Shown piece after piece: positions 48,685-52,537 of a DNA stretch of 64,000 nucleotides; the stretch's first letter is position 1; each line of letters begins with the position of its first letter. The DNA comes from Jatrophihabitans sp. (GTDB lineage: Bacteria; Actinomycetota; Actinomycetes; Mycobacteriales; Jatrophihabitantaceae). The notes under the pieces are model-generated. The model made no database searches, was not told where the DNA came from, and saw only the letters and a program-made list of their open reading frames with translations. The stretch lies in NCBI GenBank assembly GCA_036399055.1, contig DASWNX010000014.1:18535-82534 (forward strand). The letters are read 5' to 3'. The position numbers and the translations under genes were made by a program.

Positions 48685-48972
48685 ATGGTCCTCGAAGTAG
48701 CCCTGATCGATGTCCAACCCGGCGCCGAGGCGGCCTTCGAGGCCGGCTACCGCGGCGCCGTCGGCGCCCTGCGTGAGTCCGAGGGCCTGCTGAGCCTGCG
48801 GATGACGCGCGGAGTCGAGACGCCGACCCGGTTCGTGCTGCTGGTGGAATGGGAATCGTTGCAGGCCCACCAGGCCTTCCGCGACTCTGAGCGGTTCGCG
48901 CTCTGGCGTGCCGGGGTCGGCCCGCACTTCGCTGAGCCGCCGCGCATCGAGCACTTCACCGACCTCGGCTGA
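48685..48972 (+). CDS. Antibiotic biosynthesis monooxygenase (ABM) domain protein
   Basis: A 95-residue dimeric ferredoxin-like-fold protein of the ABM family: DVQPGAEAAFEAGYRGAVGALRE, then FVLLVEWESLQAHQAFRDSERF. Members include quinol monooxygenases and heme-degrading enzymes, but many are uncharacterised. ATG 48685 is the first start compatible with the domain; no good ribosome binding site is seen. It follows the homogentisate genes. Confidence 0.82.
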   Translation: MVLEVALIDVQPGAEAAFEAGYRGAVGALRESEGLLSLRMTRGVETPTRFVLLVEWESLQAHQAFRDSERFALWRAGVGPHFAEPPRIEHFTDLG

Positions 48973-49152
48973 GCCCTTCACCGACTCGCGCGCACCCCTG
49001 CCGCCTCGCTGACGCTCGCTGCGCAGTCCCCTGGGGATGCGCCCTGTTGTCGACCGTCTCCGCAGACGTCGGCCAGCGGGGACCGCGGTGGCGTCGTCCC
49101 CCGAGCGACGCCACCGCGGCAGCTTTGCCAGCGCGCGATCTGAACGGCTCCC

Positions 49153-49605
49153 CTACCGGGTGATCTGGATCGTCACGCTGTTGGTTTCGCTGCCGCAGGT
49201 GTACTGCCTGCAGCCCCAGATCTCGGCCGTCGCGACTGCCGTTCCCTTGGCGAACGCCTTGCCGGTGCTGGCCGGAACCCGGATCAGGACCCGCTGGTGC
49301 CCTCCGGTGCAGGCCACTTGGGTGTAGCTGTAGCCGGTGGCCGTCTCGCTGCCGACCCGCTCGGTCACCCTGAGCCTCACGTCGGCGGTGGAGGCGTTGC
49401 AGTCGACGTCGACGGGCACGTCGACCGCGGCGCCCCGGCTGACCAGACTCGCTGGTGACTGCGGGGTGACGTCGAGGTGCAGGCCACCGGAGTAGTACGC
49501 CAGCGCCGGCGAGCTGGGACTGAGCAGCACCAGCGCGGATCCGCCGACCAGCGCCGCGCCGATTACCGCCGCCTTGGCCCTGTTGCCGTTTGCCTTGATG
49601 TTCAT
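49153..49605 (-). CDS. Small exported protein, copy 1
   Basis: A 150-residue protein with a signal peptide (hydrophobic stretch from about residue 11, ending PALA near 35) and a beta-rich mature domain beginning YYSGGLHLDVTPQSP. Four cysteines (DCNAS, ACTGG, GCRQYTCG) suggest two disulfides. A paralogue lies at 51372-51806. The ATG overlaps the stop of the O-antigen-ligase-like gene (ATGA) and has AAAGGAG upstream, so the two proteins are made together. No family recognised. Confidence 0.82.
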   Translation of the reverse strand: MNIKANGNRAKAAVIGAALVGGSALVLLSPSSPALAYYSGGLHLDVTPQSPASLVSRGAAVDVPVDVDCNASTADVRLRVTERVGSETATGYSYTQVACTGGHQRVLIRVPASTGKAFAKGTAVATAEIWGCRQYTCGSETNSVTIQITR

Positions 49606-51020
49606 GGGAACTCCTTTCGCGAGGTCTCCCCCGCCGGTTGGGTGATGCGGCCAGCCGGTATGTCCGGTGAGGCCAGGCCGACCAGTGCCGCTGCCACCAG
49701 CGGAATGGCCGGGATATGCCAGACAAAGTCGAAACCGGCGTGCAGGGCCAGCGCGAGGGTCGCCGCCAGGGCGCCCGCGCTCACCGCCCCGCCGGTCCGG
49801 CGGCTCTGCCAGAGCCGCCACAGAAGGGTCGCCAGCAACGTGGCCAGCAACAGTCCCCCGACGATGCCGAGTTCGGCGAGCACCTGCAGGTACTCGTTGT
49901 GGGCGTAGCGGTAGACGCTGCTACCGGTCCCGGTGGTCTGAGTCAGCGCGGGCAGGCTGGGGCCCGCGCCGATGAGCCGGTGCTGGTCGAAGACCTGCAG
50001 TGCCGCATGGAATGAGGCAGCCCGCTCAGGGTCATCGACGGTCAGCCGGGCGCCGGTGATGGCCGTGACGCCGGTCCATCTCGGCACGCTGAGGCCGAGT
50101 GCCAGCAACGCGAGACCACCGACCGCGACCGGGCTGAACCGGCCGAACCGGCTGTGCCGCAGAGCCGTCGCACCGGCACTGACCGCGAGGCCGGCGGCAA
50201 GGGCGATCGCGGCCGGGACCGGCCGCGGACCGCTCGCCGTCATAGTCGGGACCAGTCCGAATGCCGCGACCATCGCCCCGAGCGCCGGTCCCCACCCGGC
50301 ACGTGTCAGCGCCTTCGGCCCGCGAGCGGCGGCAAGAACGACAAGGCCCACCGCCATCGCCAGCAGGCCGGCGCGGCTGAGGGTGGCGATCAGCCCGGCG
50401 AGCAACACGGTCGTGCCTAGCGCCAGCCGCATCGAGCGCGGCGTCTGGGTCAGGCAGGCAAGCGTGACCAGGGCCAGCATCGCCAGGATGACCGCCGTGG
50501 CGTTCGGATAGGTCAGGGTCGACGAGGCCCGCCACAGCCCCTGGCCCTGCCAGGTCCACCGCTGCCAGTGCAGCGCCAGTCCCAGCCAGCCGAGCAGCGC
50601 GATCAGGACCCCGCAGCCAACCAGGCCGGTCAGCACCAGGTCCCGGGCGATCGCGTCCAGCCTGCCGCACGCGAGGAAGACCGCGAGCACCCCGATCAGC
50701 AGCGCGAGGTAGGGAACAGCCGCACGCGGATCGTGATGCAGCATCGCGCCGATCAGCGCCCACCCCGCAAGGCCGGCCAGTGCGAAAGCGACCGGTCGGT
50801 CCGCACGCGCGAGCCGGTGCCAGCCGGGCATTGCCAGCAGCGCGGCAGCCAGCAACGCGGCCACCCAGAGCTGCACCCGAGCGTAGAAAGCCCCCTGCCC
50901 GACAACGGAAACGCTGAGAGCCGCTAGCAGAAATGGCGCTCCCCGCTGCGGGCTGTGAGCTAACCGCGCCGATGCCGGCACGCTCACCGGAGCACGGCCG
51001 GCTGGCTCTATACATTGCAT
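49602..51020 (-). CDS. O-antigen ligase-like membrane protein (Wzy_C/PF04932)
   Basis: A 472-residue protein with about a dozen hydrophobic segments and a large extracytoplasmic loop before the last helices. It carries the ligase-family region around HRLIGAGPSLPALTQ and YRYAHNEYLQVLAELGIVGGLLL. Such proteins transfer or polymerise glycans on the outer face of the membrane; in Gram-positives they act in capsule, exopolysaccharide or protein glycosylation. No glycosyltransferase or flippase gene is nearby. The only partner is the exported protein whose start overlaps this stop, which could be its acceptor (inference). Confidence 0.88.
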   Translation of the reverse strand: MQCIEPAGRAPVSVPASARLAHSPQRGAPFLLAALSVSVVGQGAFYARVQLWVAALLAAALLAMPGWHRLARADRPVAFALAGLAGWALIGAMLHHDPRAAVPYLALLIGVLAVFLACGRLDAIARDLVLTGLVGCGVLIALLGWLGLALHWQRWTWQGQGLWRASSTLTYPNATAVILAMLALVTLACLTQTPRSMRLALGTTVLLAGLIATLSRAGLLAMAVGLVVLAAARGPKALTRAGWGPALGAMVAAFGLVPTMTASGPRPVPAAIALAAGLAVSAGATALRHSRFGRFSPVAVGGLALLALGLSVPRWTGVTAITGARLTVDDPERAASFHAALQVFDQHRLIGAGPSLPALTQTTGTGSSVYRYAHNEYLQVLAELGIVGGLLLATLLATLLWRLWQSRRTGGAVSAGALAATLALALHAGFDFVWHIPAIPLVAAALVGLASPDIPAGRITQPAGETSRKEFP

Positions 51021-51042
51021 GTAGTTAAAGAGTCACAACTAC
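51021..51042. promoter_or_regulatory. Inverted repeat abutting the ligase start codon
   Basis: GTAGTT and AACTAC are complementary arms around a ten-base loop, immediately before the ATG of the ligase-like gene. It could be a translational or transcriptional operator. Confidence 0.35.
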
Positions 51043-51073
51043 CCAGGTTCGTTGCTTTTCATGTATGTACGTT

Positions 51074-51084
51074 TCATAACGAAA
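51074..51084 (-). promoter_or_regulatory. Shared upstream element TTTCGTTATGA, copy B
   Basis: An 11-base sequence in an AT-rich patch about 54 bases before the ligase start. The identical sequence occurs at 52067-52077, upstream of the decayed ligase copy, which marks it as part of the duplicated promoter region. Confidence 0.5.
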
Positions 51085-51122
51085 ATATTGGGAACTGACT
51101 CGCATACCGCCGTGACCAGCCT

Positions 51123-51178
51123 TAGCGGATCAGGCCTAGCCGATCAGGCCTAGCGGATCAGGCTCAACGGATCAGGGC
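51123..51178. repeat. Four tandem 14-base repeats
   Basis: Units at 51123-51136, 51137-51150, 51151-51164 and 51165-51178 resemble TAGCGGATCAGGCC, the first three differing at one position. They lie between the VOC fragment and the ligase promoter region. Confidence 0.8.
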
Positions 51179-51270
51179 ATGGCCGGGCGTGCGAGGGGCG
51201 GCCAGGGTGGCGCAGCAGCACCTCGATGAGGTTGCCGGCCGGATCGGCGAGCTGGGTCCCGTAGTCGATT
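51176..51270 (-). pseudogene. Fragment of a VOC-family gene C-terminus
   Basis: The minus strand encodes [20 protein letters not shown], as in the intact VOC gene at 52103-52537. Bases 51206-51264 match 52132-52190 at 56 of 59 positions. There is no start or N-terminal part. It is one boundary of a tandem duplication. Confidence 0.75.
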
Positions 51271-51371
51271 GACGCCATGCCGGGACGCCAGCTGGGGCTG
51301 CCTGACGAGACACTCGGCGCCGCGGCACGGGACCCGGTGGCGAGGGCTCCCCCGCCACCGTGTCCCACCGC

Positions 51372-51806
51372 CTACTTGGTGACCTTGATCGTCGTGCTTG
51401 CTGACTCGCTGCCGCAGACAGTCCCAGTGCAGCTGTAGAGAAACGCGCTCGCGACTGCCGACCCCTTCGCGAACGACTTGTCGCTGCTCGCGACAACCCT
51501 GACCAGCACCCGCTGCGTGACTCCGGTGCAGGTCACCCGGGTATTGCCATACCCGCTCGCGATCCGGCTGCCCACCCGCTCGGTCAGCTGGATGTCCAGG
51601 TACGCGTACTGAGCGTTGCACTCGACGTCGACAGCCACATCGACCGCGGCGCCCCGGGCGACCAGGGTCGCGGGCGACTGCACGGTGAACTCCAGGTGCA
51701 GGCCGTCAGAATCGAACGCCAGCGCCGGTGCGCCGGGGCCGAGCAGCGCCAAGGCGGCTCCGCCGGCCAGCGCGCCCACGGCTGCCTTCATCCTGTTGTT
51801 GTTCAT
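51372..51806 (-). CDS. Small exported protein, copy 2
   Basis: A 144-residue paralogue of the 49153-49605 product: signal peptide ending APALA, mature start FDSDGLHLEFTVQSPATLV, shared RGAAVDV and LTERVGS, and four cysteines in the same order (ECNAQ, TCTG, SCTGTVCG). AAAAGGAG precedes the ATG. It lacks an intact upstream ligase gene; instead a decayed ligase remnant lies directly upstream. Function unknown. Confidence 0.82.
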   Translation of the reverse strand: MNNNRMKAAVGALAGGAALALLGPGAPALAFDSDGLHLEFTVQSPATLVARGAAVDVAVDVECNAQYAYLDIQLTERVGSRIASGYGNTRVTCTGVTQRVLVRVVASSDKSFAKGSAVASAFLYSCTGTVCGSESASTTIKVTK

Positions 51807-52013
51807 GTGGTGCTCCTTTTCGCGAGGTCTTCCTCGTCGGGGCGGGTGTGCGGCCCGGCCCGTGCTTGGTCAGATGAGGCCAGCGCCGCCCGAGCGGTGC
51901 GGGCGGGATATGCCTAGGCATGCCCAAGCCAGGTCCAGATGCCAGCAATGCCAGGCTGACCGGTATGACGGTCAGCCATGTCGCCAGAACGTCTGCGGCG
52001 GGCTTACATTGCC
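51807..52013 (-). pseudogene. Decayed second copy of the ligase-like gene
   Basis: Reading on the minus strand, the region begins with GGCAATGTAAGCC, like the ligase start region (GCAATGTATAGAGCC), and ends with codons for LALLAS..PRHIPPAPL and TSRKGAP, matching LALALHAG..WHIPAIPL and TSRKEFP at the ligase C-terminus, with the same distance to the exported-protein start. The middle 400 or so codons are missing and the stop has changed. Confidence 0.6.
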
Positions 52014-52066
52014 ACTAGGTATGAGACAATGGTGCGCAGATCAACTACATCTCGCCGGTATCCATC

Positions 52067-52077
52067 TCATAACGAAA
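52067..52077 (-). promoter_or_regulatory. Shared upstream element TTTCGTTATGA, copy A
   Basis: Identical to 51074-51084 and in the equivalent position of the duplicated unit, between the VOC 3' end and the ligase remnant. Confidence 0.5.
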
Positions 52078-52102
52078 TCTGGCACACCGACGTCAAGCGC
52101 CC

Positions 52103-52537
52103 TCAGGGCCGGGCGGGCGTTGGGCGCCCGGGGTGGCGCAGCAGCACCTCGATGAGGTTGCCGGCGGGGTCGGCGAGCTGGGTTCCGTAGTAGCTCAACT
52201 GGTCGGACTCCCAGTCCCGAGGCGCCTGCACCACCGAGATGCCGGCGTCGCGGGCCACGGCGTGCACCGCGTGCACCAGCTCCCGCTCGGTGACCGCCAG
52301 CGCCAGGTGCGCGCCGCTGGTCGCCGCGGCGCCGGCCACCAGCCACAGCACCAGCCGCCCGCCGGCGCTGCCGTAACCCACCGCCGCGACGGTGCCGGTG
52401 TCGTCCTCGTCACCCTCGGGGTCGGAGAAGTCCACGGTCGGCGCCAGGCCCAGGCAGCCCAGCAGGGCGTCATATACTGCCCGACTGGCCTCGAAATCCT
52501 CAGCGACAATCGTGACGTGATCCAGAGTCGTGCTCAT
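52103..52537 (-). CDS. VOC-family protein
   Basis: A 144-residue glyoxalase-fold protein: [23 protein letters not shown] at the N-terminus, [19 protein letters not shown] in the middle and [19 protein letters not shown] at the end. A GAGG sits eight bases before ATG 52537; ATG 52543 is an alternative. The start region overlaps that of divergent psuG. Its 3' end is duplicated at 51206-51264. Confidence 0.85.

Follow-up and report, generated by a model that had tools for sequence, protein, structure and literature searches.

Within a 64,000-nucleotide stretch of the Jatrophihabitans sp. genome (contig DASWNX010000014.1, positions 18,535 to 82,534; hereafter the window), a gene for a Wzy_C-domain ligase overlaps at its stop codon with the start of a gene for a small exported protein (e1), and a second, partly decayed version of this two-gene unit, with its own exported protein (e2), stands in front of it. 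On the minus strand between positions 49100 and 52600, the order VOC 3′ end, TTTCGTTATGA element, ligase and exported gene occurs twice (Table 1), as an initial annotation made from the letters alone had claimed. The two VOC 3′ ends form a direct repeat with a 59-nt core (56/59 identical), TTTCGTTATGA has just two matches in the window at up to one mismatch (0 of 100 shuffles gave two), and the exported genes share a 300-nt repeat at 73% identity and encode proteins with 60% amino-acid identity. Comparison of the region with itself likewise carried the similarity past the VOC fragment, into the exported genes and the ligase remnant. The conserved coupling of ligase and exported protein, for which we propose a function on sequence grounds, seems a better find than the history of the tandem. 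G000 denotes the window’s own genome, and the other G and L labels denote genomes and loci compared with it.

Table 1. Features of the two ligase–exported protein units and their surroundings
Feature	Position in window	Strand	Basis or remark
VOC (glyoxalase-fold) gene, intact; its 3′ end is one repeat arm	52103..52537	-	PF00903, E 1.8e-8
VOC 3′ end, repeat arm inside the intact gene	52104..52191	-	88 nt, 90% identity to 51178-51265
TTTCGTTATGA leader element, upstream unit	52067..52077	-	near-identical in the G002 and G008 leaders
Remnant of Wzy_C ligase gene (leader/start region and C-terminal part)	51807..52020 (upper end approximate)	-	alignments
Exported protein 2 (e2), 144 aa, signal peptide, 4 Cys, QSPA motif	51372..51806	-	
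VOC 3′ fragment in front of the downstream unit	51178..51265	-	direct repeat
Degenerate 14-nt tandem repeats between VOC fragment and ligase	51114..51183	-	similar repeats at the same place in G002
TTTCGTTATGA leader element, downstream unit	51074..51084	-	
Intact Wzy_C ligase, 472 aa	49602..51020	-	PF04932, E 1.2e-13
Exported protein 1 (e1), 150 aa, start overlapping the ligase stop (ATGA)	49153..49605	-	
14-bp perfect inverted repeat behind e1, terminator-like, without T run	49083..49119	.	by eye

The intact ligase exceeds the Pfam cut-off for Wzy_C (51.5 bits against 31.7), as do all four relatives scanned, and residues R164, R216, R325, R333, H374, H427, D431 and H435 are invariant in the 14 aligned ligases, itself included. 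Two narrower models were not reached: the TfpM O-oligosaccharyltransferase (O-OTase) model NF058641 gave 13.7 bits against a cut-off of 600, and the exosortase-associated O-ligase model TIGR03097 gave 15.7 bits against 188.1. At E up to 1e-40 the genome has a single ligase of this family, and PF04932 gives two Wzy_C matches in it. An AlphaFold model of the ligase from two alignment rows was not usable (predicted local distance difference test score, pLDDT, 40.8). In the G008 ligase (L015, 3146-4711), low-complexity GLRGL repeats are inserted near residues 68-95; the other aligned ligases have no such insertion.

Neither e1 nor e2 matches Pfam or NCBIfam up to E 1, and at E up to 0.01 they are the only genes of the exported family in their genome. 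From about residue 42, e1 is predicted to form a beta sandwich, with S50 between two strands; an all-beta model of the mature part and the lack of a Pfam match up to E 1 set it apart from type IV pilins. For e2, arithmetic on coding distances puts the ratio of nonsynonymous to synonymous change (dN/dS) on its branch at about 0.8, a weakly constrained estimate. The separate useful roles that the initial annotation read from the retention of both exported proteins gain no clear support from this value. The open frame of e2 is weak evidence of selection, because a frame of that length survived in 26-52% of 1,000 neutral simulations per setting (0.25-0.10 changes per site; substitutions only, no indels).

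The pair recurs well beyond this genus. When a profile of five exported proteins was searched, 33 genomes gave a match among 397 of the order and 6 among 396 of the phylum, the window’s own in both, and we examined the five phylum places, the twelve best further order places and G058, setting aside 16 lower-scoring order genomes. At nine of these 18 exported-gene loci a ligase lies directly upstream (ten ligases); with the four pairs first found, this gives 14 intact pairs, some of them outside the class. Stop and start overlap in 13: eleven share ATGA or GTGA, and in two more the exported gene begins 14 or 20 nt ahead of the stop. The sole non-overlapping pair (L078) has its exported start 3 nt after the ligase stop. 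In G214 (L090, G214:C42, 1543-5341) two intact pairs stand in tandem, their partners 50% and their ligases 79% alike, which is a natural parallel to the window. A type IV leader peptidase gene (PF01478) lies just upstream of these tandem pairs, and a further exported-like match, interrupted by one TGA, is found on G214 C54.

From the ligase side, a 14-row profile (E up to 1e-40, best four candidates per genome) matched 11 of the 397 and 8 of the 396 genomes. Matches below 1e-140 were all known pairs, and no close ligase without a partner was seen with this profile, which was built from these same pairs. Five weaker ligases were found, in G187, G158, G417, G435 and G667. The first four are each followed by a gene for an exported protein, whose start is offset by +2, +16, -1 and -1 nt, respectively, relative to the first base of the ligase stop. 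These four partners are not recognized by the exported-family profiles and differ widely: 87 amino acids in G187, 528 with 30.7% Ser+Thr in G158, 223 in G417, and 226 with a Ser/Thr/Pro linker in G435. The 528-amino-acid partner (G158:C84, L183) lies near two DUF3048 proteins.

To put a number on the coupling, we asked for a next frame of at least 60 amino acids that starts -25 to +20 nt from the ligase stop and has a signal-like N terminus, judged by simple hydropathy rather than by a trained predictor, and no further membrane span; for L109, whose match extends beyond a stop codon, the first stop was taken as the gene end. The control comprised 70 other Wzy_C loci from 101 order genomes (at least 79 with a match), 30 of them displayed with their surroundings and 40 chosen further down the match list, excluding known pairs and leaning to higher scores. 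The rule was passed by 13 of the 14 pairs (L078 fails), by all four distant ligases to which it was applied and by 4 of the 70 control genes (Fisher, 5e-11 for the pairs and 6e-5 for the distant ligases), and one of the control passes (L175) looks like a glycosyltransferase. The G667 ligase, split over contig ends and for that reason outside the scripted count, is counted as a miss below. An exported gene directly beside the enzyme gene, as for TfpO, TfpM and PglS, is thus a recurrent arrangement (13/14 and 4/5 against 4/70). A mirror-tree correlation between ligases and partners (r 0.84) was not used, because shared ancestry alone can produce such a value.

On the outer side of the membrane, Wzy_C enzymes pass lipid-linked glycans on to an acceptor, which may be a lipid, a growing chain or a protein. 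A Wzy_C gene coupled to an exported protein of exchangeable family is best matched by an enzyme that brings its own acceptor; TfpO, TfpM and PglS are often encoded near their targets. Our best reading, by analogy, is a pair dedicated to protein O-glycosylation, of a kind already known for the pilins of Gram-negative bacteria. In this pair the ligase would act as an O-OTase that transfers a lipid-linked glycan to its translationally coupled secreted partner at the outer face of the membrane. The anatomy of the units, the overlap of the genes, the recurrence of the pair and the change of partners are observed directly, whereas we infer the catalysis, the glycan and the acceptor site by this comparison.

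The likeness to known systems is partial. Excerpts of earlier work describe the pilin/ComP enzymes TfpO/PilO, TfpM and PglS as WaaL-like membrane proteins often encoded near a single exported target (PMC12645811, PMC3643930). In contrast to these, the partner here is a secreted beta-sandwich or Ser/Thr-rich protein and not a pilin, the ligase gene comes first with overlapping stop and start, the setting is actinobacterial and the NCBIfam TfpM model is not reached. PglL O-OTases share the Wzy_C domain, whereas the five ligases scanned here gave no match to PglL_A or Wzy_C_2 and the partner is not a pilin. Excerpts of one Gram-negative survey place PglL homologues beside pilin genes in 21 of 31 cases, and those of a review state that tight linkage is not widespread among PglL O-OTases. 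WsaB and WsfB of Geobacillus and Paenibacillus, predicted Wzy_C S-layer O-transferases, are likewise Gram-positive Wzy_C proteins proposed to glycosylate an exported protein; in the excerpted account they belong to S-layer glycan clusters or loci, whereas the neighbours sampled here hold no glycan genes (PMC2943079). The O-antigen ligase WaaL shares the Wzy_C domain with its conserved His and Arg, a likeness drawn at family level, but the ligase here has a coupled exported partner. The host phylum is also Gram-positive and is not known to make lipopolysaccharide, in contrast to the setting of WaaL. We found no description of such a ligase–acceptor pair in the open-access literature searched by titles and abstract openings.

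The short segment between the signal peptide and the beta domain is where the glycan might be placed. It often holds an SPA motif, present in 11 of 15 linked exported proteins (the 14 paired ones and e2) against none of nine unlinked homologues; a seven-member unlinked clade does not have the SPA-bearing segment at all, and for the remaining two unlinked homologues the alignment is poor at this point. S50 of e1 and the SPA motif are named as a candidate acceptor site and not as evidence of transfer.

Several findings weigh against a dedicated pair. At the other nine of the 18 exported-gene loci, seven of which form one clade in one family, no ligase was found at E 1e-4 within about 2-3.6 kb, so the exported family does not need one nearby. 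PglL_A and Wzy_C_2 domains were not reported at E up to 1 in the 5 of 14 ligases scanned, and G667 shows, by eye, no signal-bearing next frame. The lipid-linked sugar initiator PF02397 occurs in all 13 pair-bearing genomes searched, but it is also present in 9 of 14 control genomes and is common anyway. The SPA contrast reflects few independent events and few unlinked lineages. Foldseek comparison of the exported-protein model with the PDB returned generic beta sandwiches and no telling match; among the best 50 rows, the highest template modelling (TM) score was 0.47 by query and 0.62 by target, for a carbohydrate-binding module.

This last result bears on a different reading, which we consider somewhat unlikely, in which the ligase polymerizes or ligates a polysaccharide, assisted by the exported protein as an accessory factor (a scaffold, lid or glycan-binding partner) and not as acceptor. 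The weak Foldseek neighbours, which also include fimbrial subunits, are consistent with such a role, and Wzy_C-type domains are common to WaaL and known O-OTases and do not alone separate these, according to excerpts of published work. An accessory factor fits poorly, however, with a partner that can be replaced by exported proteins not recognizably related to it, two of them rich in Ser, Thr and Pro. It also fits poorly with the surroundings: among 15 neighbouring frames at 10 pair loci, the 12 that match Pfam include transporters, reductases, a regulator, a leader peptidase, an alpha-amylase and others, and none belongs to a glycosyltransferase or flippase family.

The upstream unit retains only part of its ligase. 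The initial annotation had taken 51807-52013 for a decayed ligase gene, which alignment bears out: the C-terminal part (51955-51813) aligns to 49758-49611 with a score of 49.0, where the best of 500 shuffles reached 32.5, and the whole remnant scores 52.5, where none of 300 shuffles exceeded 41.5. The match of the start part is less strong, its score of 24.5 being reached by 1 of 500 shuffles. The further claim that the start region and the last 30 or so codons were kept is right in so far as TSRK is retained (in the 51706-51948 frame) and the remnant leader, with GCAATGTA, aligns to three real ligase leaders at 44-46 of 78-82 positions; it fails in that the ATG is lost and upstream indels leave the last 30 residues not continuously in frame. 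We estimate from the alignment that, out of 1,419 nt, the gene has lost about 1.2 kb. What is left of the C terminus is equidistant from the ligases of G000, G002 and G008 (112/142, 111/146 and 111/142), which are mutually 85-88% alike across that part, and the leader is similarly distant from all three (44/82, 46/78 and 45/80, against 63/79 between the G000 and G002 leaders).

Relatives show a single unit at the same site. The genus sample comprised nine genomes, the window’s own included, and the VOC gene was matched in all nine. The unit is present in three: G000, G002 (ligase 85%, e1 79%) and G008 (68% and 73%; locus L013 was taken as G008 C230, as both have 6,029 bases and matches at mirrored places, and counted once). 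G002 and G008 each carry one unit between the VOC gene and what we label the ABM gene (a 95-amino-acid frame at 48685 in the window), and the downstream unit here is the positional orthologue of these single units. The initial annotation had looked to relatives for single-unit and two-ligase ancestors; the former are present in G002 and G008, whereas no relative with a two-ligase tandem at this site was found and the tandem of G214 lies elsewhere. A weak match at G002:C33 (E 1.8e-4) was dropped, as a profile search did not confirm it. In G001, G003, G004, G006 and G007, neither ligase nor exported protein was matched at E 1e-8 by tblastn, and the VOC and ABM matches end 20-474 nt apart; this check left out G005, which is 63% complete. 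Confinement to three congeners, with VOC and ABM adjacent in five, is most simply explained by insertion of the cassette in one branch. In G028, from another family, both genes lie between proA-like and nadD-like genes, named from their frames. The downstream VOC–ligase spacer matches that of G002 (score 63 against at most 22.5 in 300 shuffles) and on this ground is the resident one, whereas the upstream spacer does not stand out (score 18, reached by 3 of 300).

The split between e1 and e2 looks old. The e2 protein is 60% identical to e1, 58% to its G002 and 63% to its G008 counterpart, against 69-79% among e1, G002 and G008, and synonymous distance (dS, by the NG86 method) is 0.492 between e1 and e2 and 0.391 between e1 and G002. 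Both are equally far from the outgroup G028 (49% each), so e2 is not simply faster. Trees place e2 outside e1, G002 and G008 with support of 98/98 (24 rows), 97/98 (15 rows) and 79/96 (8 rows). The groupings put to the approximately unbiased (AU) test were chosen with the first tree in view. The test rejects e1+e2 in the 24-row (p 0.0122) and 15-row (p 0.0118) alignments, and e1+e2+G002 likewise (p 0.0084 and 0.0077), but neither in the 8-row alignment. The VOC arms, by eye, differ at only 4 of 60 bases, about as G000 and G002 do there, and agree in two states against G002 and G008; four differences have P 2.4e-5 at the e1–e2 distance (28.7% divergence) and P 0.12 at the G000–G002 VOC distance. 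The VOC fragment, if unconstrained, thus looks much younger than the e1–e2 split.

An old split and a young fragment are both explained by a mosaic joined through the VOC gene, and on sequence grounds we consider that two old unit lineages were probably joined by recombination there, an event that we infer. A two-gene cassette would have entered the VOC–ABM interval in an ancestor of the three congeners, and a second, long-diverged version would now stand in front of the resident one, most likely joined to it by recombination in the VOC gene that left the extra VOC 3′ end. The second cassette’s ligase would then have lost about 1.2 kb, bringing e2 directly behind the old leader element. Of the duplication followed by ligase deletion that the initial annotation proposed, the homologous tandem units and the largely missing ligase hold up, whereas simple copying of the present unit disagrees with the 24-row and 15-row AU tests and the remnant distances.

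An older tandem duplication, before the three congeners split, with separate losses of the second unit in G002 and G008 and gene conversion of the VOC 3′ end, is in our view unlikely. It would account for the near-equal distances of e2 and the remnant from all three congeners, and the tandem in G214 gives it a precedent, but it requires two losses plus a conversion tract shorter than 100 nt, and no second unit was seen in the G002 and G008 intervals, in no search aimed at remnants. A recent tandem duplication followed by fast change of e2 would suit the 90% identity of the VOC arms over 88 nt and their two shared states, and the 8-row AU test, which speaks against the mosaic, keeps both e1+e2 (p 0.111) and e1+e2+G002 (p 0.162), but it is improbable given the larger alignments’ AU result (p 0.012), the dS values, the equal distances from G028 and a remnant leader without the features common to the G000 and G002 leaders.

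Taken together, cassette history with recombination in the VOC gene and a dedicated O-OTase with its secreted acceptor form the best explanation of the locus as a whole, to which we would give about an even chance. In that case e2, with its QSPA motif kept, may now be served by the sole remaining ligase. More tentatively, we suggest that actinobacteria may carry portable two-gene O-glycosylation cassettes, in which a Wzy_C transferase is coupled to a secreted, exchangeable acceptor and places a glycan after the signal peptide, and that diverged tandems, as here and in G214, could allow a single transferase to act on several acceptors. What is known of protein O-glycosylation in actinobacteria concerns mainly Pmt-type mannosyltransferases. 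If the proposal is true, Wzy_C enzymes with built-in acceptors would form a second route in these bacteria; they would also offer glycan engineering ready enzyme–substrate pairs and give unannotated secreted proteins a function.

Some smaller observations concern the leaders and the rest of the genome. For a promoter reading of TTTCGTTATGA, no common -35 box was seen by eye in the leaders. An imperfect palindrome (GTAGTTG...AACTAC, 51021-51042) closes the ligase leader just 5′ of the ATG and is largely common to G002 and not to G008 or the remnant. Elsewhere in the genome there is a second psuG-like gene (42%; G000:C26:126967-127845).

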